16,134 nt of DNA from an uncultured bacterium (lineage in GTDB: Bacteria > Patescibacteriota > Minisyncoccia > UBA6257 > Colwellbacteraceae): contig CAJVWL010000003.1 of assembly GCA_913009745.1 (NCBI GenBank), forward strand, positions 1-16,134, given 5' to 3'. The notes beneath the pieces were generated by a model that was given only the letters and a program-made list of their open reading frames with translations, ran no database searches and was not told the origin of the DNA. This document shows positions 6,771-15,472 of this stretch, one piece after another. The translations under genes and the position numbers were made by a program. How positions within the stretch are numbered: position 1 is the first letter of the stretch; each line of letters begins with the position of its first letter.

Positions 6771-8057
6771 TTATTTATTTTTTATCGCTATTATAATATC
6801 CGAAACGTTTCTGCCGGTATTTCCGGTTAAAATATAATCTCCCGTTTTTTCAAAAAATGAATATGCCATATTTTTATTTAAATATTCTTCTATGTTTAGA
6901 TTCTTTTTGTCAGCAGTATCCTTGGTTATTGTATCACAAAGAGCTCCCGCAAAATCCGTGTTATCCCTTCCATCCGAGCCCACGGCAACAACCGTCTCTC
7001 CTTTATTAATAAATCTTAGCGCGGATAGTATCAACTCTTGGCACCTACCCCCTTTTCCTGGGTTTCTTACGGTTACAGTGGTTTCTCCTCCATATAGAAA
7101 TACTGTGCGATTTTTTGCCTTGCGCAGTTCGTGTACTATATCGCGGCCCACATCTCTCGCTTCTCCGGAGAGCGTTGTTGTGCAAATCTCAGGCAAAAAT
7201 CCTTCCGAGCTAGCTTCCTTCGCCATTGCGGTGAGGGCAATTTTATTTGAGACAACGATGATGTTTCTGATGTTTTTAAAATACTTATCATCTTTTGGCG
7301 TTTCAATCAGCGAGTCTTCATCAACTCCAAATTGGTTTCCATTTTTGCAGGTTTGCAAAATGCGGAGAGCGTCCTTAGTCGTTGTTGTGTCTTTTACCGT
7401 TGGACCCGACGCAATAAATTGCAGGTCATCTCCGGGAACATCGGAAAATATAAGTGAAATCGCCCTGGCCGGATAGGCGTATTTTGCGAGATATCCACCC
7501 CTGGCAAATGAAAGGTGTTTTCTAACGGTGTTCATCTTTTCAATATCTACCCCCTCATCAAACATCAGCTTAATAAACTCGGATTCATCTGAACAGGTCA
7601 TATTCTTGGGTTGGCACAAAAGAGTGGACCCTCCTCCGGAGATGATAAAAATTACAAAATCTTTTTTCGTTGTCCCGGATAACAGTTTAATAATCTCTTT
7701 GGTTGCCTTCATGTTGACCTCCGATGGGAATGGGTGCTGTCCGCTAAATGCGCTAATTCTTTTGAGGTTTCCCTCTCTAACATCAATCACCACCCCATTG
7801 CTTATTCGTTTCCCGAGTATACTTTCCAGTTCTTCCGCCGCGCTTAGGGAGGCTTTGCCGACGCCAACAACAAAAAGATTGTCTATATCCCTCAAATCAA
7901 TCACGGCATCACCGATAGATAGTTCGTCGCCTTTAATGTGAACCGTACTGCGGATGATTTTCTTTGTATCAACGGCATCAAGTCCAACATCTATCATCCT
8001 CAATGCAAGCTTTCTGTCTTCTGTTTTTGCAAGTTTCTCAAAATTCTTAATTATCAT
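6771..8057 (-). CDS. gckA: Glycerate 2-kinase (GckA/MOFRL family)
   Basis: The 428-residue protein matches the GckA/MOFRL type of glycerate kinase, which phosphorylates D-glycerate with ATP to 2-phosphoglycerate. Motifs in order: VGVGKAS (64-70), GQHPFPSE (106-113), SGGGSTLL (140-147), TVRKHLSFARGG, SDVPGDDLQFIASGPT, GGETTVTV, GKGGRCQELILSAL and near the C terminus GSDGRDNTDFAGAL. The length agrees with the family (about 410-450). The gene heads a minus-strand run of glycerate kinase, ppsA, dehydrogenase and eno; its product is the substrate of the enolase encoded three genes on. Its ATG is about 50 bases downstream of the terminator of the structured RNA at 8108-8335, so it could be controlled by read-through or by a weak promoter of its own. 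No Shine-Dalgarno is visible. Confidence 0.93.
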   Translation of the reverse strand: MIIKNFEKLAKTEDRKLALRMIDVGLDAVDTKKIIRSTVHIKGDELSIGDAVIDLRDIDNLFVVGVGKASLSAAEELESILGKRISNGVVIDVREGNLKRISAFSGQHPFPSEVNMKATKEIIKLLSGTTKKDFVIFIISGGGSTLLCQPKNMTCSDESEFIKLMFDEGVDIEKMNTVRKHLSFARGGYLAKYAYPARAISLIFSDVPGDDLQFIASGPTVKDTTTTKDALRILQTCKNGNQFGVDEDSLIETPKDDKYFKNIRNIIVVSNKIALTAMAKEASSEGFLPEICTTTLSGEARDVGRDIVHELRKAKNRTVFLYGGETTVTVRNPGKGGRCQELILSALRFINKGETVVAVGSDGRDNTDFAGALCDTITKDTADKKNLNIEEYLNKNMAYSFFEKTGDYILTGNTGRNVSDIIIAIKNK

Positions 8058-8072
8058 AACTGCATATATATA

Positions 8073-8081
8073 CTTATATCA
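8073..8081 (-). promoter_or_regulatory. Possible extended -10 promoter for the glycerate kinase operon
   Basis: On the minus strand TGATATAAG fits an extended -10 element (TG-N-TATAAT, one mismatch) between the upstream terminator and the ATG at 8057. No clear -35 is present. If used, the leader would be under about 10 bases. The alternative is that the operon is read only by read-through from the RNA upstream. Confidence 0.3.
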
Positions 8082-8107
8082 CAAAATAAAACTGTATTAA
8101 TGTCCAA

Positions 8108-8335
8108 TTAAAAAAAACCACCGATCTGATTCGGCGGCGTATATATTCAAAAGAAGTATGTGAGGAGCGGGTGTTGTCGGCTTGGTCAGCCGACAATTAT
8201 GGTCAATCGGGTTACCGCCCTGTTAGGCGGAGACCAACTAGCCATATTTCGTTCCACCCCGCTTCGGGTTGTACAGAATGAAACAAACACCCAACTCCTC
8301 TTTGATGGCACGTGAAGCCCTGTCCACGCGCCGTA
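8108..8335 (-). ncRNA. Structured RNA of unknown family, about 228 nt
   Basis: A promoter-like sequence (8342-8370) and a U-rich terminator (8110-8137) bound a densely paired stretch with no reading frame. Stems, in plus coordinates: 8307-8314 with 8325-8332 (8 bp); an enclosing helix 8162-8167 with 8295-8300 extended by 8169-8175 with 8286-8292; and inside it three hairpins, 8247-8250 with 8280-8283 (tip 8258-8261 with 8265-8268), 8215-8219 with 8226-8230 closed by 8200-8204 with 8232-8236, and 8176-8182 with 8188-8194. In the first stem and in the terminator, pairs that are G-U on the minus strand would be A-C mismatches on the plus strand, which fixes the orientation. I looked for the conserved cores of RNase P, tmRNA, SRP RNA, cobalamin, TPP, FMN and glycine elements and found none. 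It is either a free-standing RNA or a leader controlling the glycerate kinase operon 50 bases on. Confidence 0.72.
8110..8137 (-). terminator. Rho-independent terminator of the structured RNA
   Basis: Minus-strand hairpin with a seven-pair stem (8131-8137 with 8118-8124, one G-U) and a six-base loop, followed by eight consecutive U (8117-8110). The G-U pair is an A-C mismatch on the other strand, so the terminator works for minus-strand transcripts. It lies between the structured RNA and the glycerate kinase ATG. Confidence 0.85.
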
Positions 8336-8341
8336 TACTAA

Positions 8342-8370
8342 ATTGTGCCACATATATACATACGGGTCAA
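8342..8370 (-). promoter_or_regulatory. Predicted promoter of the structured RNA
   Basis: On the minus strand TTGACC (8370-8365) is followed after exactly 17 bases by CACAAT (8347-8342). The -35 matches five of six consensus bases and the -10 four of six. A start seven bases on would fall at about 8335, just before the first stem of the RNA. Its agreement with the structure's edge is the main support. Confidence 0.55.
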
Positions 8371-8386
8371 ATTTGATGACTATTAT

Positions 8387-8412
8387 GAACGCCTCAACGC
8401 GTTGAGGCGTTC
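8387..8412 (-). repeat. Perfect 26-bp palindrome after csoR
   Basis: The 26 bases are their own reverse complement with no mismatch, with the centre between 8399 and 8400. They begin four bases after the csoR stop codon. As RNA they fold into a GC-rich hairpin of 11 pairs or so. A transcript-ending or 3'-end-protecting hairpin for csoR is the likely role, but no U tract follows on either strand, so it is not a textbook terminator. A binding site for a dimeric protein upstream of the RNA promoter at 8342-8370 is the alternative. Confidence 0.6.
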
Positions 8413-8416
8413 AGGG

Positions 8417-8689
8417 CTAGCCGTCTTTTCTTGATATTTTGTAAACTGAAAGTATCTCTTTAATTGCTTTTGAGTGTTTTCCGCTTTTTATCTGGTCTAT
8501 TACGTGTGTGGAAAGATGGTTTTCAAGCATTAAATTCTCAAACGATGAAAGCGCTTTTTTAACAGCTTGGGTTTGATTAATAATATCAATACAATACTCA
8601 TTTTGTTCAACCATTCTCTGGAGTCCTCGCACCTGACCCTCTATGATGCTAAGTCGTCTGTGTATGTCTTTCTTGACATTCTTTTTCAT
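8417..8689 (-). CDS. csoR: CsoR/RcnR-family metal-sensing repressor
   Basis: This small all-helical repressor of 90 residues (from MKKNVKK) matches CsoR along its whole length, including IEGQVRGLQRMVE (16-28) and the tail IKSGKHSKAIKEIL. Family members bind GC-rich operators and release them when Cu(I) occupies a Cys-His-Cys site. Here the three positions are C33, H58 and H62: spacing is as in CsoR, but the third ligand is His, as in the nickel/cobalt sensor RcnR. C33 is the only cysteine. Starts at 8731 or 8695 are in frame but lie within or before the predicted promoter, so 8689 is preferred and implies an almost leaderless mRNA. The gene is divergent from the DUF1573-CcdA operon. An operator in its own promoter implies autoregulation. 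Confidence 0.92.
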   Translation of the reverse strand: MKKNVKKDIHRRLSIIEGQVRGLQRMVEQNEYCIDIINQTQAVKKALSSFENLMLENHLSTHVIDQIKSGKHSKAIKEILSVYKISRKDG

Positions 8690-8697
8690 ACGCATGT

Positions 8698-8727
8698 ATG
8701 ATATCCCCCGAAGGGTATGGGGGTCAA
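8698..8727 (-). promoter_or_regulatory. csoR promoter with CsoR-type operator in its spacer
   Basis: On the minus strand TTGACC (8727-8722) and TATCAT (8703-8698) are separated by 18 bases. The spacer holds an operator-like ATACCCTTCGGGGGATAT (minus strand, 8718-8701), close to the CsoR site known from Bacillus subtilis copZA as I remember it (TACCC-N-GGGGGTA core). Bound repressor would block csoR. It would also cover the probable -35 region of the divergent plus-strand operon. Confidence 0.75.
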
Positions 8728-8731
8728 GCAT

Positions 8732-8739
8732 TATATAAA
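8732..8739 (+). promoter_or_regulatory. Probable -10 of the DUF1573-CcdA operon
   Basis: The AT-rich TATATAAA lies about 18 bases before the ATG at 8757. No consensus -35 is visible; the -35 position (about 8709-8716) falls in the CsoR-type operator, so the operon is likely metal-controlled. This is inference from position. Confidence 0.4.
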
Positions 8740-8756
8740 ATTAATATTAATAAACA

Positions 8757-9257
8757 ATGAAAAGTAAAATTATTTGGGGAGTTCTTGTTGTTGGAATAAT
8801 TGTAACGCTGATATGGGTTAACGGAAATAAGAATACTGCCCCGTCTAAATCGCAATATTCCGCCGGCGCGATATCCATAGCAGAAAACACATTTGATTTT
8901 GGAAGAGTTCCAATAAACGGCGGTGACGTAATGCATGAATTTCAAATAAAAAATGACGGAGCGGAGCCGGTTACCATAAACAAGGTTTATACATCGTGCG
9001 CCTGCACAACGGCGCGCATAATTGATAGTTCGGGAAAAAAATATGGAACATTCGGTATGCAAGGGCACACGGGAATAGTTTCGGCTGCCAATATCAAAAT
9101 TGACCCGGGAAGTTCTGCGACACTTGAGGCGATATTCAATCCAGCCGCGCACGGACCTGCAGGAATTGGATTGGCTCAAAGATCCATATATATAGAAACC
9201 AACTCAAGAGAACATCCAAAAACCGAAGCTTCATTTAGGGCGGTAGTAACCCAGTAA
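8757..9257 (+). CDS. Membrane-anchored DUF1573 domain protein
   Basis: The 166-residue product has an N-terminal membrane helix (about 4-21) and then a DUF1573 beta-sandwich exported to the outside: FDFGRVPINGGD (46-57), HEFQIKNDGAEPVTI and the hallmark TSCACTTA (79-86), giving a C81-x-C83 pair. DUF1573 proteins are usually anchored or lipidated; their role is poorly defined, though the conserved cysteines suggest thiol or metal chemistry. H60, H104, H132 and M59/M101 could add soft-metal ligands, but that is speculation. It leads a three-gene operon (gaps of 2 and 4 bases) with a CcdA-like protein, and lies next to csoR with a shared control region. The hydrophobic segment may be an uncleaved anchor, as no lipobox or clear cleavage site follows. 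No Shine-Dalgarno is present. Confidence 0.85.
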   Translation: MKSKIIWGVLVVGIIVTLIWVNGNKNTAPSKSQYSAGAISIAENTFDFGRVPINGGDVMHEFQIKNDGAEPVTINKVYTSCACTTARIIDSSGKKYGTFGMQGHTGIVSAANIKIDPGSSATLEAIFNPAAHGPAGIGLAQRSIYIETNSREHPKTEASFRAVVTQ

Positions 9258-9259
9258 TT

Positions 9260-10114
9260 ATGGATGTTATTTTAGGGGCATCAATCATAGCTTCTTTTCT
9301 TGCCGGGATGGTGGCACTTTTTGCGCCGTGTTGTATAACCATACTGCTTCCGGCATATATAGCCTCCGTATTTAGAGACAAAAAGAATGTTCTTAAAATG
9401 ACATTCGTTTTTTTTGCGGGAATATCCGTGGTGCTAATTCCAATCGGACTTGGAGCGGCAAGTCTGGCTAACTTATTTAAGAATTTTCACGAAGAGCTAT
9501 ACATAATCGGCGGTGTATTGATGCTTTTGTTCGGCGTCCTCTCGCTATACGGAAAAGGAATAAACTTTATGCCTATGTCAAAAAAGATAAAGGCAACCGT
9601 TGATGCGAATCACTCTAAATCTGTTTTTGTTCTCGGTATTTTGTCCGGTGCGGCTACGTCATGCTGCGCGCCGGTTCTTGCGGGAGCGGTAACACTCGCG
9701 GTCATATCCGGCGTATTCTGGAAAGCGCTTATTGTAACGTTTGCCTATGTGTTCGGTATGGTGTTTCCATTATTTATCGCGGCATACTTCTATGATCGCT
9801 TTAAGATAGAACAATCCAAGTTGATTATGGGGAAGGAGGTAAAAATCAGCTTGGGGAAAAAGCAGCTGACAATTCATACTACAAATGTTTTTGCGGGATT
9901 ACTCTTCCTTGTAATGGGGGTTGTATTTTTGATAATGGCATTTTCGGGCAACACATTCTGGGCCCCGAAATACCAGGTCGCAATCGGTAATTCATTAGAG
10001 AAAATATCAAATTCTGCTTTTGGGATACTGAGCAATATACCAAACATAGTATGGGGTGGCATTTTAGTCGGAGCGGTCCTATTCTTTGCAATAAAATCAT
10101 TAAAAAACAAATAA
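9260..10114 (+). CDS. CcdA/DsbD-like thiol-redox membrane protein with doubled cysteines
   Basis: The 284-residue protein has six or seven membrane segments (about 5-35, 45-69, 78-98, 120-150, 155-177, 208-230 and 258-278) and the two-fold CcdA architecture, in which a cysteine in each half carries electrons from cytosolic thioredoxin to the outer face. The first motif is FAPCCITILLPAY (C24, C25) and the second TSCCAPVLAGAV (C135, C136). Typical members have one cysteine at each position; here both are Cys-Cys. A loop near 178-207 is polar. It follows the DUF1573 gene by two bases. Related ScsB proteins protect bacteria from copper through periplasmic thiols, which would suit the CsoR-type control region. 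Metal transport through the doubled cysteines is an alternative. I am sure of the superfamily, not the substrate. Confidence 0.85.
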   Translation: MDVILGASIIASFLAGMVALFAPCCITILLPAYIASVFRDKKNVLKMTFVFFAGISVVLIPIGLGAASLANLFKNFHEELYIIGGVLMLLFGVLSLYGKGINFMPMSKKIKATVDANHSKSVFVLGILSGAATSCCAPVLAGAVTLAVISGVFWKALIVTFAYVFGMVFPLFIAAYFYDRFKIEQSKLIMGKEVKISLGKKQLTIHTTNVFAGLLFLVMGVVFLIMAFSGNTFWAPKYQVAIGNSLEKISNSAFGILSNIPNIVWGGILVGAVLFFAIKSLKNK

Positions 10115-10118
10115 CAAG

Positions 10119-11171
10119 ATGAAAGAACTAATAAAAAAGGGGAAGCGCATAACCGGCAAGGTTCGCGGAAAAATCGGTAAAAATAGGGGTAACAGCGCCC
10201 CACATGAGCATGAGAATGAAAATGGCGATGAGAGAAAGGGCGTCTCTTTAGGACGCAACACAATAGATAGTAAAAATCTGTGGATGTGGATAGCTATTAT
10301 CTTGGCGGGAACGCTCATATTTACACAATTATTTGAGGTTAAAATAGAAATACGGCAAAGAGGCGCGCAAGAGGGTACCGAACAGACAACAAGCGGAACG
10401 GCTGTCTCTGACAAGGAAATAGCTAACGCGGTGATACCGGGCAGTGGAGTTGTTCTTCCCGTACGATGGGGAGATCTCGGAGAAAAAATGGTTAAAAATG
10501 GCATAATAGATTCCGTAGCATTTGAAAAGCTTTATGCAACGCGGGGAGGTCTAAGCGACGGAAGCAAACAGCTTTTGTACGGAAAAAATAACGGGAATCT
10601 AAAAATTGATACTCAAAATTCAGGAGTTGTTCTAAATCTTTTATGGGCATTCGGTCTGTCAAATAAAAACGCCATCCTGGAGAACGGGCCAATGCAGGAT
10701 CCTAAATATGGCGGAGCGGGACGTTTTGCTTCTACCGGCGGATGGACACTTGCGAAAGGAAACGCCATGAACTATTACAGCAAATATGCATTTGTTTCTT
10801 TAACGCCCGAACAGCAGGCTCTTGTAGAGAAGGTGTCCAGAAATATATATAGGCCGTGTTGCGGAAACTCGGTGTATTTCCCGGACTGCAATCACGGCAT
10901 GGCAATGCTCGGACTCTTGGAACTCTTGGCGTCACAGGGAGCAAATGAAACGCAAATGTATGCCACCGCATTAAAGGCAAATTCTTATTGGTTTCCAAGC
11001 ACATATGTAACTATCGCAAAATATTTTGCGAAGAGAGGCGTTGCATGGAATGATGTAGATCCTAAAGAAGCCCTGGGTTCTCTATACTCAAGCGCTTCGG
11101 GGTACAAACAGGTTTTATCTGAAGTTGAACCTGTAAAAAGCCAGGGAGGAGGCGGAGGTTGCGGAGCATAA
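10119..11171 (+). CDS. Anchored protein with PCC...CNHG motif, family not recognised
   Basis: This 350-residue product has a basic, His/Glu-bearing cytosolic N terminus (H29 and H31 within 26-40), one membrane helix (about 54-72) and a large exported domain. The most striking feature is PCCGNSVYFPDCNHG at 246-260, giving C247, C248, C257 and H259, followed by an alanine/leucine-rich helix. The C terminus is low-complexity, GGGGGCGA, with a lone cysteine C348. The segment around NGIID and the helical run after CNHG look well ordered, but I cannot name a domain. Four cysteines and a histidine outside the membrane suggest metal binding or disulphide exchange with the CcdA-like protein encoded four bases upstream. 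It is the last gene of the operon adjoining csoR. A copper-binding partner is a guess from context. Confidence 0.82.
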   Translation: MKELIKKGKRITGKVRGKIGKNRGNSAPHEHENENGDERKGVSLGRNTIDSKNLWMWIAIILAGTLIFTQLFEVKIEIRQRGAQEGTEQTTSGTAVSDKEIANAVIPGSGVVLPVRWGDLGEKMVKNGIIDSVAFEKLYATRGGLSDGSKQLLYGKNNGNLKIDTQNSGVVLNLLWAFGLSNKNAILENGPMQDPKYGGAGRFASTGGWTLAKGNAMNYYSKYAFVSLTPEQQALVEKVSRNIYRPCCGNSVYFPDCNHGMAMLGLLELLASQGANETQMYATALKANSYWFPSTYVTIAKYFAKRGVAWNDVDPKEALGSLYSSASGYKQVLSEVEPVKSQGGGGGCGA

Positions 11172-11200
11172 GCATCCGTTGTCCGTATAATTAAATGTAT

Positions 11201-11608
11201 TTATATTATCCTGCTCAAATCCCCCTCTAATATGATTGGCTCAACTGATTCAAGTTCCTCTTTTATATAAGGTTGATTTGGCATTGGATTAATGAAAAAT
11301 ATTTTCTTTTTCAAATGATGAGCAAATCCAATTTCCATAAAAGTATTCGCTCCAATGTAATTCTCAATGTCTTTCTTTGTATAGTTTGCTACAAGTATCG
11401 CATCTGATTTTTCAATCTTTTCCATGTGCTCGCTAATTAAATCCTGTGTCTTTTTTGCGGCAACTCTCTTTGAGCCATCTTCTTCCCAGTAATCAACACC
11501 CTCAACTTTTACGGGCGTGTAGACTATATGTCCAAGCTTCTCAAGTCCAGCCTTTAACTCAAGGGTTTCGTCCCAAAATTTCAGAGATGCGCAAATAGTT
11601 ATAGTCAT
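11201..11608 (-). CDS. Nucleoside 2-deoxyribosyltransferase-like protein
   Basis: The 135-residue product fits the Rossmann-like fold of nucleoside 2-deoxyribosyltransferases and relatives. It begins with a hydrophobic strand (MTITICASLKF), has KSDAILVANYTK around 67-79 and the family's GANTFMEIGFAH at 86-97, whose Glu corresponds to the catalytic nucleophile of the family (GxNxxxExG). Family enzymes move deoxyribose between bases or hydrolyse nucleotide N-glycosidic bonds. The length suits the small branch of the family. It starts two bases after the Nudix gene stop, so the two form an operon likely concerned with nucleotide salvage or clean-up. Its 3' end converges on the plus-strand operon with a 29-base gap and no obvious terminator. 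Confidence 0.8.
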   Translation of the reverse strand: MTITICASLKFWDETLELKAGLEKLGHIVYTPVKVEGVDYWEEDGSKRVAAKKTQDLISEHMEKIEKSDAILVANYTKKDIENYIGANTFMEIGFAHHLKKKIFFINPMPNQPYIKEELESVEPIILEGDLSRII

Positions 11609-11610
11609 AA

Positions 11611-12054
11611 TTAGATAATGTTCAGTTTCTTAAACCAATATTCCCATGCGGGTTCCAGTTTTAGTTCTTTTATTTCTTCCCCGCTATACCAATTTATTGA
11701 TTTTGTCTCTCTCTCGCTTCTCGTTAATTCCCCCAACACATCACACTTGAAAAGATGCCAATAATGAGCGTTTACCCCTTTACTGCACCAATTCCAATCA
11801 AGCTCTTCCTCAAAAAGAAGTTCACAGTTCTTGGCATCTATCCCTCCTTCTTCTTTAATCTCCCTCTTTAGGGCCTGTAACGCAGACTCTCCTTCGTCTA
11901 TGTGTCCGGCAATACCGGCAAATCCAAGAGGAGGCACCGCTCTTTCTATTAATAGATATTTATTATCTTTCTTGATAATAGCCCCAACGGAATAATGCAT
12001 CTTCTCGCCATTGATATTTTTTCCTTCCTTGGGTTTTCCCATATTCAAAACCAT
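11611..12054 (-). CDS. Nudix hydrolase
   Basis: The 147-residue protein carries a complete Nudix box at 50-72 (G50, E56, R64-E65, E68-E69, G71), which binds the divalent metal and cleaves nucleoside diphosphates linked to another group. The substrate cannot be read from the sequence. The fold starts at about residue 19 (MHYSVGAIIKKDNKYLLIERA), so the true start may be that methionine or M5 rather than the first ATG at 12054; none of the three has a convincing ribosome-binding site. It is followed two bases on by the deoxyribosyltransferase-like gene. Both could act on modified or surplus nucleotides. It lies just downstream of the copA terminator, so it probably has its own promoter. Confidence 0.85.
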   Translation of the reverse strand: MVLNMGKPKEGKNINGEKMHYSVGAIIKKDNKYLLIERAVPPLGFAGIAGHIDEGESALQALKREIKEEGGIDAKNCELLFEEELDWNWCSKGVNAHYWHLFKCDVLGELTRSERETKSINWYSGEEIKELKLEPAWEYWFKKLNII

Positions 12055-12104
12055 ATCACATTACCGCATTTATCAACAAATATTGTTTACTGTTTTGTGG
12101 CGCC

Positions 12105-12134
12105 GAAAAGCCCCATGTATCAATGGGGCTTTTC
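12105..12134 (-). terminator. Terminator hairpin after copA
   Basis: A perfect 12-bp stem (12105-12116 with 12123-12134) closes a six-base loop. The 3' arm ends in CTTTTC on both strands because of the symmetry, so it can stop transcription from either side. It lies about 50 bases past the copA stop and before the Nudix gene. The U tract is short. Confidence 0.75.
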
Positions 12135-12186
12135 TAAGCGGAAAATATACTGAGATGAAGTCTGGCTCCTCTACTGCATACAAAGT

Positions 12187-14763
12187 CTATATATCCACTT
12201 TCTTCAATCGCAATGAATTCAAGACAACACTGATACTGCTAAACGCCATCGCCGCAGCGGCAAAAATTGGATTGAGTAGAATTCCAAAGAATGGATATAG
12301 AACTCCTGCCGCAACCGGAATAAACGAAGAATTATAAAAGAATGCCCAGAAGAGGTTCTGTTTTATTATCTTCATCGTTCGCTTTGAGAGGTTTATTGTC
12401 TCCGGTATAAGCATTAAATCTCCCCTCATCAGGGTAATATTGGAAGACTCCATAGCAACATCTGTTCCTTCTCCCATTGCAATACCAATATCAGCCTGCG
12501 TAAGAGCGGGGGCATCGTTTATGCCGTCTCCAACCATCGCCACAACTTTCCCTTGCGCCTGAAGTTCTCGCACCTTCTCGGATTTCTTGTCCGGCAAAAC
12601 TTCACTCATTACATTTTCTATACCCACCTGCTGGGCAATTGCGCGAGCGGTACGATTATTATCTCCCGTAAGCATCCAGACATCTATTCCGCTTTCTTTT
12701 AGAGCTTTTACTGCTTCTATTGATTCTTTCTTTATTACATCTGCAACGGCAATAGCTCCTTTGATTCTATTGCTAACGGCAAGGACCATCACGGTTTTGC
12801 CATCACTTTCAAGTTTCTTTATTTCATCTTCATATAAAGATATATTAAGTCCCAAGTCTTCCATGAGCGCCCTGTTTCCCAGATAGGCCTCTACTTTTTC
12901 CGACTTGATTTGCAAAAATCCGCTTAGTCCCTTTCCGGAGATTGCCTTAAACCCTTCAAGTTTATACAGCTCAATTTTCTCTTTTTTCGCTTCTTCTATT
13001 ATCGCCTTATCAAGCGGACGAGAAGATTTCTGGTCAAGACTTGCAGCATATTTCAGGATTGCCTGCGCCAAGGGGTGCTCCGATCTTTGTTCTAAAGATG
13101 CGGCAAGGTTTAGAACCTGCATTCGGTTTTCATTATCAAACGCAATGATGTCGGTTAACTGCGGTTTGCCTTCCGTAAGTGTTCCTGTTTTGTCTAGAAT
13201 TACCGCGTTGATTTTGTTGGCAATTTCAAGTGATGTAGCGTCTTTAATTAAGATTCCTTTACTTGCAGCGCTACCGGAAGAAACCATAATTGCCATTGGC
13301 GTCGCAAGCCCCAATGCGCAAGGGCAAGCAATAATAAGTACGGCAACAAAGTTAATGAGAGCAAAACTGAAAGCCGGTACGGGACCGAAGAAAAGCCAAA
13401 CTATAAAAGTCAGGATGGCTATGCCAAATACAACCGGGACAAAGTATGAAGCAACTAGGTCTGCAAGGCGCTGAATTGGAGCTTTTGACCCTTGTGCCTC
13501 TTCAACCATCTTAATGATTTGAGAGAGGACTGTATCTTTCCCTATCTTTGTAGCTTTAAAAGTAAAGGTGCCAAACTTATTAACCGTGCTTCCGATAACT
13601 AAACCGTCGACCGTCTTGTGAACGGGCATTGACTCTCCGGTTACCATTGATTCATCAATCTCCGAGTCACCCTCGGTAATTTTTCCATCAACGGGAATTT
13701 TCTCGCCGGGTCGGACAACTATTAGGTCTCCGACACTTACGTCTGTGATTGGTATCTCAACCTCTTTTCCTTCCTTTAAAATCCTTGCGGTTTTAGGCTG
13801 CATGCCAACAAGCTTCTTAATTGCCTCGCTCGCCCTTCCTTTCATTAAAATCTCAAAATACTTACCGAGGAGAATCAAAACAATGATGACCGCCGCCGTA
13901 TCAAAGTACGTTTCAGGCAATACTCCTCCCCTGATAAAAAAGCCAGGAAAGATGGTAACCGCCGCACTGTAAAGGTATGCAGACAAGGTTCCTACGGCTA
14001 TCAGTGTGTTCATATCTGCGGTGCGATATTTTACCAATAACTTAAGACCCGAGTAGAACTGCCACCCCACCCAGAACTGTACCGGTGTTGTAAGGATGAA
14101 AAGTGTCCAGAAATTATTTAAAATCTCCGGAACGAATGGAAACCATCTTGGAAAACTGCCCAAGAAAACAATAATTGAAAGAATGCTTCCAACTATAAGC
14201 TTACGTTTAAGTGTTTTTATTTGTTTTTTCCGCTCAATCTCCTCTTTGTCTAAAACCTCTTCTTCTTCGCCTCCTTCTTGTATCGGTTTATAGCCTGCAT
14301 CCGTAATTACTTTAAGAACATCGTCAACCGTAACCACTTTTTTATCTAACACGACTTTTGCGCGTTTATTGGAAAAATCAACATCAATATTTTTAATGCC
14401 CGGAAGTTTTTTTATTGCGCCCTCAACTATCATCGCGCAGTGAGGGGAGTCCATCCCAATCACTTTTATGGAAATTATCTCCGAATCTCCATTGCCTGCT
14501 TCTTTTTCTTTATCAGTCTCACCCGTAGTGTCTTTAGCGGGAGAATCCTGATGCCCAATCTCAAGCTTGTATCCAGCGGTCTCAACGGCCTTAGCGAGGT
14601 CCGACTCGGAAACGATTTGCTCATCAAATTCAATCAGTGCAGATTCTGTAGCAAAATTAACCGATGCCGAATTTACTCCTTCGGTCTTTGAAAGAACACG
14701 CTCAATCGTACTTACGCAGCTTGCGCAAGTTATTCCGTGAACTTTATATGTTTCTTTTTTCAT
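12187..14763 (-). CDS. copA: Copper-exporting P1B-type ATPase
   Basis: This 858-residue pump moves Cu(I) out of the cytosol at the expense of ATP. In order: a first heavy-metal domain with ITCASC (C13, C16); a second with a single cysteine, GMDSPHC (103-109); membrane helices from about 190; TGES (375-378); the transport-site motif ACPCALG (C480, C482); DKTGTLT with phosphorylated D524; SEHP (H563, P564); GDGINDAP (745-752); and the Cu(I)-type residues Y810-N811 and M839-A-F-S-S. All catalytic residues are present. Residues 554-572 are repeated imperfectly at 573-591, so the HP-motif helix occurs twice, the second time as SSRP. A CsoR-type operator overlaps the promoter, so copper induction is expected. 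The 5' leader is about 37 bases without a clear Shine-Dalgarno. Confidence 0.97.
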
Positions 14764-14806
14764 TATTTATATTTTTTATTTTCCGCCACTTTTTGTGTTC
14801 GTGTTT

Positions 14807-14836
14807 ACTATACCCCCTGGGGGTATAGTTTGTCAA
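14807..14836 (-). promoter_or_regulatory. copA promoter with perfect CsoR-type operator
   Basis: On the minus strand a consensus TTGACA (14836-14831) and TATAGT (14812-14807) are separated by 18 bases. A perfect 11-bp inverted repeat around one central base (14807-14829, core TACCCCC-N-GGGGGTA) fills the spacer and covers the -10. This is the layout of CsoR-repressed promoters and is nearly the same as in front of csoR. Confidence 0.9.
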
Positions 14837-14999
14837 ATGCTTATAGGATATTTGATATCATATGCGACTATTTTAGTCTTCCGCTGATTCTAAAATTAGT
14901 TTCTTTTTCTATTCAACTTTTTCGCCTTTTCTCTGTTTATCTTCTTTGCGGGTATATTGTCACTATATTAACATGCCAGTAAGTAATATCGCGAATGAA

Positions 15000-15035
15000 C
15001 CCGCAGCAAGGCAGAGGTTGCGAGGCTTTGCCGGG
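15000..15035. repeat. Imperfect hairpin between copA and the second Nudix gene
   Basis: CCCG (15000-15003) and GCAAGGC (15006-15012) pair with GCTTTGC (15025-15031) and CGGG (15032-15035), with a two-base bulge and a 12-base loop. An 8-bp direct repeat, GTAATATC, borders it at 14983-14990 and 15035-15042. No U tract follows on either strand. It lies just past the Nudix stop at 15047, so it may end or stabilise that transcript. The rest of the 14764-15046 gap holds only the copA promoter. Confidence 0.4.
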
Positions 15036-15046
15036 TAATATCCTGT

Positions 15047-15472
15047 TTAACCTATAAATTCAACCGCGTTTTTATATTTTTGGGGTATTTTAAGTCTAAA
15101 AAACTCATCTTTAGCTACCCACTTATACCGATTATGTTCATGGCTTAATTTTACCTCATCGGTATTGGACTCCAATCTATGTGTATAGATAAAAGTTATA
15201 ATTGGGCAATCGTATCCATCTCCCTTTATGCTATAGGAAACGTCAAGTATTTTTACCGAGTTTAACTTTATGCCGGTTTCTTCCTTTACCTCTCTCATTA
15301 CAGCTTCTTTAGGACTCTCGTTTGCCTCTAATAAGCCCCCTGGTAAATCCCAAGTCAATGGCCTTTTGGGAGCACTCTCGTTCCTGAAAAGGACTAGTAT
15401 CTTGTCACTTCCATTCGCAATGACAACTTTAGATATTAATACTACTTTTTGTCCGTTGTGGTCCGTGTACAT
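15047..15472 (-). CDS. Nudix hydrolase
   Basis: The 141-residue protein has a canonical Nudix box from G46 to I68 (G46, E52, R60-E61, E64-E65, G67), preceded by the usual WDLPGG. The N-terminal strand reads VVLISKVVIANG. The substrate is not evident; the layout resembles small NUDIX proteins of the MutT/ADP-ribose pyrophosphatase group. It is not closely similar to the other Nudix protein in the window (11611-12054). It starts about 46 bases after the dehydrogenase gene on the same strand, with a weak TAGGG seven bases before its ATG. The two may be co-transcribed. Confidence 0.87.
   Translation of the reverse strand: MYTDHNGQKVVLISKVVIANGSDKILVLFRNESAPKRPLTWDLPGGLLEANESPKEAVMREVKEETGIKLNSVKILDVSYSIKGDGYDCPIITFIYTHRLESNTDEVKLSHEHNRYKWVAKDEFFRLKIPQKYKNAVEFIG

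Follow-up and report, generated by a model that had tools for sequence, protein, structure and literature searches.

Introduction

The Scs (suppressor of copper sensitivity) system couples a DsbD/CcdA-type membrane protein to an extracytoplasmic thiol protein (ScsB/ScsC) and is tied to copper. The ScsC of Caulobacter is described in PMC8900818 as a disulfide isomerase that binds Cu(I). Here we analyse an operon with a similar pairing in a stretch of 16,134 nucleotides (the window) of contig CAJVWL010000003.1, assembly GCA_913009745.1, from an uncultured Colwellbacteraceae bacterium of the Patescibacteriota. Unlike Scs, it encodes a DUF1573 protein and a protein of an unnamed family, which we call PCC, in place of ScsC, it is accompanied by CsoR-type operators, and it belongs to the Patescibacteria. 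The operon resembles Scs in the way it works, but it falls outside that system: the defining ScsC is absent from the three genes (Pfam and NCBIfam scans of them returned no ScsC-type thioredoxin-fold protein). The gene set is accompanied by invariant cysteines, operators and a tie to copper-type ATPases, and we give about even weight to the reading that the operon is a copper-induced extracytoplasmic copper/thiol module.

Three other described arrangements come close. As in the CcdA/CcmG-CcmH pair of cytochrome c maturation, there is a CcdA-like partner, and PCC has a weak fold match to CcmH; unlike CcmH, however, PCC has a different cysteine spacing and no sequence support for the relationship. 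As in csoR-copA operons, there are a CsoR, a CopA and an operator, ATACCCCCTGGGGGTAT, that resembles the Streptomyces lividans sites given in PMC3902906, whereas the Cys-His-His triad of the CsoR and the extra divergent thiol operon set the locus apart. Finally, DUF411 (PF04214) is present near PCC in 15 of 99 PCC loci (compared within six genes, 40 of them cut short on one side), where DUF1573 and CcdA are absent; in contrast to these, the window's own genome has no match to DUF411. An earlier note on this DNA, made from the sequence alone, knew of no description of the gene set, and we likewise found none among the papers listed in searches of the open-access literature on DUF1573, CcdA, CsoR, copper, P-type ATPases and Patescibacteria.

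Results

The operon consists of three plus-strand open reading frames, as the open reading frame listing confirms: the first, at 8757-9257, is followed after 2 bases by the second, at 9260-10114, and this after 4 bases by the third, at 10119-11171. It lies in a genome assembly of 418 kb that is 84.5% complete, with csoR divergent to it and copA on the minus strand at 12187-14763. The protein types named in the earlier note, that is, an anchored C-x-C DUF1573 protein, a CcdA-like membrane protein and an anchored four-cysteine protein, were borne out by profile and sequence matches and by cysteine counts.

PCC, the product of gene 3 (10119-11171, plus strand), is an anchored extracytoplasmic domain with a single hydrophobic segment, at the N-terminus. 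Its cysteines number exactly four: C247, C248, C257 and C348. It has no match in Pfam or NCBIfam and no PDB sequence match at E <0.9, and the idea that PCC belongs to a known Pfam or NCBIfam family was rejected, 81 members giving scattered Pfam matches only (best E 0.016). A genome-contig search gave 399 related stretches; of the best 80 of these, which were kept, 62 are labelled as a Patescibacteria lineage, 17 only as 'bacterium' and one (L067) as Thermodesulfovibrionia. Among 100 non-redundant members R245, P246, C247, C248, N250, D256, C257, H259 and G260 are invariant, and the motif RPCC-x8-C-[NS]-H-G (RPCC-x8-CNHG in the window, residues 245-260, positions 10851-10898) has identical spacing in 100/100. 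C348, in the C-terminal tail GGGGGCGA (11145-11168, plus strand), is present in 98/100. In the 96 members shorter than 400 residues there are four cysteines in 60, three in 1 and more than four in 35.

The AlphaFold2 model of PCC has a mean pLDDT of 85, with blocks of 92-98 over residues 101-340 and a value of 57 for the last ten residues. Given that C348 lies in this loose C-terminal GGGCG tail, the PCC/CNHG motif can be read as one site and the tail as a second element; the four cysteines of the earlier note therefore stand, refined into three in the PCC/CNHG site and a fourth in a separate tail. Foldseek found no PDB match to the model at E 0.001 and 18 weak ones, and a viral fold library likewise gave none at E 0.001. 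The only compact Foldseek alignment, fourth by E-value, was to the periplasmic domain of CcmH (2hl7), and it was weak: E 4.6, probability 0.38, template modelling score 0.60 on the 82-residue target and root-mean-square deviation 2.6 over 61 columns. That PCC is CcmH by sequence was rejected, as its hhalign comparison with Escherichia coli CcmH was no better than those with nine control proteins, and in a pairwise comparison 28 of 400 shuffles scored at or above the real one. PF03918, which we take to be the CcmH profile, was absent from the 25 families listed, out of 26 matched, for 81 PCC members and gave no match to the PCC C-terminal segment at E up to 10; PCYCGC/CYCXC (PF13798) was likewise absent from those 25 listed families, at E up to 1. 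CcmH is a thiol oxidoreductase, and the match may be taken as a hint on the fold and chemistry of PCC, not as a sign of membership.

PCC proteins mostly end in GGCGV, GSCGV or GGCGI. Among the 1440 other genes of the 99 loci a GGCG-type ending occurs eight times. Five of these cases are mini proteins, 60-88 residues long, in which a single membrane segment can be made out by eye (L030:4470-4706, L051:8698-8880, L057:6925-7125, L083:6992-7192 and L124:1154-1420, all from the ending scan). The last lies in a second locus of the window's own genome (contig 18, 1154-3624), beside a PCC paralogue that is 35% identical, has no GGCG tail and carries a fused CPAC membrane domain; between the two stands a weakly thioredoxin-like protein with two CxxC motifs (PF13192 E 0.01, below cut-off). 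The free-standing mini proteins and the tailless paralogue suggest that the cysteine arm is an independent module. It may be compared with the arms at the C-termini of mercuric reductase and thioredoxin reductase.

The product of gene 1 (8757-9257, plus strand) matches PF07610 (E 1e-14, 54.8 bits over a cut-off of 26.1, the best stretch being profile positions 1-49 of 98). It has a single N-terminal hydrophobic segment, a PAHGP histidine and only two cysteines, C81 and C83, in a TSCxCT motif (codons within 8997-9005); C81, C83 and H132 are kept in 48/48 aligned DUF1573 proteins (>120 bits, <240 residues). DUF1573 selenoproteins with U-G-C appear in the tables of PMC9312934 and PMC13188914, which favours redox chemistry at the DUF1573 cysteine motif.

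The membrane protein encoded by gene 2 (9260-10114, plus strand) resembles the CcdA of structure 5vkv over residues 7-183 (phmmer E 1e-9), a similarity that, together with two conserved cysteines, places it with CcdA/DsbD-beta. It has no Pfam CcdA/DsbD match, and the NCBIfam DsbD models score far below their cut-offs. Its four cysteines form the pairs C24-C25 (codons 9329-9334) and C135-C136 (9662-9667), and both pairs are invariant, with H77, in 28/28 proteins of its subfamily. A second CcdA subfamily in the same neighbourhoods (37 proteins) has a single first cysteine and C-x3-C; C24 and C135 are present in 37/37 of CcdA set A2.

Gene content was compared across 160 genomes of the same order, at least 80% complete and including the window's own. 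PCC was found in 55 of them, DUF1573 in 38, a CcdA-like protein in 42 (threshold E 0.001; in 20 of these genomes the match reaches 1.9e-40 or better), CsoR in 78 and a copper ATPase over cut-off in 103. PCC is associated with DUF1573 (33/55, odds ratio (OR) 30, p 1.4e-14), with CcdA-like proteins (31/55, OR 11, p 1.5e-9) and with CopA (49/55, OR 7.7, p 1.6e-6), associations that were reached in 0, 0 and 2, respectively, of 5000 family-stratified permutations. The genes are also close: no more than 5 kb from the best-scoring copy of PCC there is a CopA in at least 38/55 genomes (two of these being contig-end fragments below cut-off), a DUF1573 gene in 30/55, a CcdA gene in 29/55 and csoR in 28/55. 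Within six genes of PCC in the 99 loci we counted CopA in 60, DUF1573 in 52, any CcdA in 63, CsoR in 34 and DUF411 in 15. This co-occurrence and clustering of the families throughout the order argues that the gene set is more than chance, and the joint occurrence on which the earlier note's idea turned holds for DUF1573, CcdA and CopA, whereas CsoR is only weakly tied to PCC. Across the whole phylum PCC is rarer, being found in 21/212 genomes.

The partners of PCC are not fixed. In the 99 loci DUF411 never occurs with DUF1573 (0/52, p 3.5e-6) or CcdA (0/63, p 2.6e-8), and a CPLC membrane family (12/99 loci) never meets CcdA. Among the 160 genomes, 10 of the 13 with DUF411 have PCC, always at most 1.2 kb away, and DUF1573 is in 0/10; seven of these ten belong to one family and are thus not independent cases. 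A quick PCC tree implies at least 12 changes between the two partner sets. Many independent events behind the exclusivity of DUF411 and DUF1573 were nonetheless rejected, as the supported branches are not significant: of six pairs, one or two go opposite ways, none goes the same way and the rest show no difference. DUF411 is presumably the CopG copper protein, and a literature search on it found no paper. In our reading, DUF411 on the one hand and DUF1573 with CcdA on the other serve PCC in comparable ways. The trio of the earlier note is a set in the window, but it is not kept in all other loci; as DUF411 stands in where DUF1573 and CcdA are missing, PCC, and not the trio, is the constant part. 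Other neighbours are of thiol type. VKOR and Trx-like proteins form a linked cluster in 15/99 loci, and in six of these 15 an anchored Trx-like protein immediately precedes PCC; Pfam confirmed VKOR in both of the two proteins scanned and gave weak, below-cut-off thioredoxin matches in four of five.

The repressor gene csoR (8417-8731, minus strand) encodes a CsoR/RcnR-family protein (PF02583, E 2.4e-25, 89.1 bits over a cut-off of 22.8) that scores 59.1 against the NCBIfam RicR model, below its cut-off of 175. Its start is more likely at 8695 (M13), where its relatives begin, and the operator described next would then fall upstream of csoR. Its sensor triad is Cys-His-His, as in 30 of the 40 CsoR compared (the window's included). 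The copper site of CsoR is Cys-His-Cys, a triad seen in 10/40 and not in the window, where the third residue is His.

A candidate operator of 18 bp, ATATCCCCCGAAGGGTAT, lies at 8701-8718 (no strand), with one mismatch to ATACCC-N6-GGGTAT. It sits between the -35 and -10 elements of the promoter-like site of csoR (TTGACC-18-TATCAT, 8698-8727, minus strand, 10/12 consensus matches) and at the -10 end of that of the operon (TTGACA-18-TATGAT, 8673-8702, plus strand, 11/12), both sites being consensus matches only. The operon site is one of the two best among 20 in 8000-15100 and points at gene 1. The copper-type P1B ATPase gene copA (12187-14763, minus strand; two HMA domains; TIGR01511, 618.6 bits against a cut-off of 397) is preceded at 14810-14826 (no strand) by a perfect type-2 operator, ATACCCCCTGGGGGTAT, with TAC-N9-GTA, within the promoter-like site TTGACA-18-TATAGT (14836-14807, minus strand). 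The CsoR type-2 consensus published in PMC3902906, ATATACCCCTNAGGGGTATAT, has the same TAC-N9-GTA. When operator counts were judged against seven scrambled patterns, sites were found upstream of 24/38 csoR genes of the loci (0-1 in the scrambled patterns), upstream of 6/74 copA genes (0) and anywhere in 45/99 loci (0-15). The metal regulation proposed in the earlier note is therefore supported in the window at the level of sequence, with CsoR-type operators at promoter-like sites; CsoR control of the operon has good sequence support there and appears occasional elsewhere.

Discussion

Based on these observations, we propose the following model. Rising copper would cause CsoR to release copA and also, through an operator shared with the divergent csoR, the three-gene operon; this layout of operators and promoter-like sites is observed in the window. 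CopA would export Cu(I). Outside, the anchored DUF1573 C-x-C protein and the anchored PCC protein may meet the metal or the disulfides that copper causes. PCC would be the core, with a CC-x8-C-x-H site and a mobile GGCG arm whose cysteine could ferry thiol equivalents or Cu(I) between that site and a membrane partner; we infer this carrier role from conservation and from the occurrence of the arm as separate mini proteins. The CC pairs of the CcdA-like protein would, from its relation to CcdA, recharge the outer thiols across the membrane or pass metal. The relay from the CcdA-like protein to the outer cysteine proteins, of electrons or of metal, that the earlier note had proposed is one that we too can only infer.

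Several observations weigh against the model. The association of PCC with CsoR is weak (36/55, OR 2.8, p 0.003; reached in 146 of 5000 permutations), and CsoR and DUF1573 are not associated in the 160 genomes (OR 0.9). Twelve of the 99 loci lack all six listed partners, and 25 have neither CopA nor CsoR within six genes, although the loci include 40 that are cut short on one side. The Cys-His-His triad of the CsoR also fits RcnR. The operator at 8701-8718 is imperfect, having one mismatch and one extra base in its spacer, and promoter-like sites are no commoner than in shuffled sequence (20 against 17.0, standard deviation 4.6). Across the loci an operator stands before the first gene of the PCC run in 6/73 cases (controls 0-1), anywhere upstream in the PCC run in 18/99 (controls 0-3) and directly before a DUF1573 gene in 1/54, namely in the window itself; on the first two counts we rejected the idea that PCC operons are generally under direct control by CsoR. 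The CcmH fold match, at E 4.6, has no sequence support.

Cytosolic electron supply adds to these points. Thioredoxin is the usual cytosolic electron donor of CcdA. A search of the window's genome (84.5% complete) with PF00085 gave zero matches, and canonical thioredoxin, at a threshold of E <=1e-15 placed at a gap in the match list, is rare in this order, being found in 14/160 genomes and in 3/55 of those with PCC. The usual donor of CcdA is thus missing or unrecognised, which counts against a simple electron relay. Weaker thioredoxin-domain matches (E <=0.001) occur in 68/160 genomes and in 23/55 with PCC, and in 5/55 (G305, G315, G340, G348 and G364) a weak PF00085 match lies within 160 bases of PCC, so that a divergent electron donor is possible.

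A narrower and tentative proposal, to which we give clearly less credence than to the copper-induced module as a whole, is that PCC is a hub for thiols or Cu(I) outside the cytoplasm and represents a class not seen before. Its CC-x8-C-x-H site would work with a detachable GGCG arm, found in some genomes as a separate one-anchor mini protein, and would be powered or loaded by interchangeable CcdA-like, CPAC-type or Trx-like membrane partners, in cells mostly without canonical thioredoxin. Somewhat less probable again is a role in pure disulfide repair or isomerisation, with PCC a thiol oxidoreductase, possibly CcmH-like, that is reduced by the CcdA-like protein, and copper an inducing stress that is bound nowhere. 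The Trx-like and VKOR neighbours of PCC, the U-G-C DUF1573 selenoproteins tabulated in PMC9312934 and PMC13188914, and the standing of CcmH as sole compact fold match, albeit at a weak E 4.6, all point that way. However, canonical thioredoxin is rare, CopA lies within 5 kb of PCC in at least 38/55 genomes, and the partner that exchanges exclusively with DUF1573 and CcdA, DUF411, is one that we take to bind copper.

We consider it unlikely that the CcdA-like protein is instead a Cu(I) conduit in which both CC pairs, together with His77, would line a route for the metal across the membrane to DUF1573 and PCC. Vicinal CC occurs in mercury transporters of the MerT kind, the CC pairs and H77 are invariant (28/28), and no thioredoxin was found in the window's genome (84.5% complete), yet the other CcdA subfamily of these neighbourhoods (37 proteins) makes do with a single first cysteine and C-x3-C. 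A shade more doubtful is that copper is incidental and that the system responds to some other metal or to a thiol stress (nickel, cobalt, silver or sulfide). The Cys-His-His triad, as in RcnR, would allow this, but the P1B ATPase nearby belongs to the copper type, the operators are of copper-CsoR type 2, and TTHA1719, the CsoR of Thermus thermophilus, carries the same triad while controlling copper genes. Its repression of copZ-csoR-copA is reported in PMC10318464. We give very little credence to the three proteins acting in the maturation of an extracellular cuproenzyme (such as a multicopper oxidase or NirK) by supplying its copper: PF07732 (Cu-oxidase_3) is somewhat commoner with PCC (9/55 against 6/105), but this family, the only cuproenzyme family searched, is absent from 46/55 PCC genomes, the window's own included, and cuproenzyme loading was rejected as the main role.

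Patescibacteria have small genomes and are thought to be host-dependent. Despite such small genomes, the gene of an unnamed family is present in 55/160 genomes of this order, and in at least 38 of these a copper-type ATPase lies no more than 5 kb away from it. If the copper/thiol module is real, the PCC family would gain a testable function, and these cells would have a copper/thiol defence that is perhaps independent of ordinary thioredoxin. It would also offer an example of an arm for redox or metal that is built as a tail in one protein and stands as a separate protein elsewhere.

Further features of the PCC loci and the window

Small CPICAG membrane proteins (cluster c3) occur in 32/99 loci (for example L061:4115-4438, L095:5207-5650 and L037:5061-5525), near PCC in both partner sets, and end in Cys-Cys in 20/32; the one scanned has no Pfam match. 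A membrane protein of about 137 residues (cluster c1), in 54/99 loci (for example L060:3867-4277), commonly precedes the DUF1573-CcdA-PCC genes; it was not found near PCC in the window, and the one scanned has no Pfam match. Directly before PCC in L041 (5491-5928) and L074 stands a Cys-rich anchored protein with CCLEKPCSYC or CCLEKPCTYC and HPCGEC, without a Pfam match for the L041 protein. In L119 and L122 the fused PCC gene is preceded by a small protein with CCCKCWRW, which was considered as a short relative and set aside as a lead only (hhalign probability 56% over 23 columns).

Between a DUF4147/MOFRL gene and csoR lie some 230 non-coding bases (8117-8345, minus strand). An Rfam search of them gave no family at gathering score and three weak matches (E 2.0-2.6). 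The RNA folds to -104 kcal/mol (z -8.3), is branched with a terminator-like hairpin at its end, and is possibly an undescribed structured RNA.

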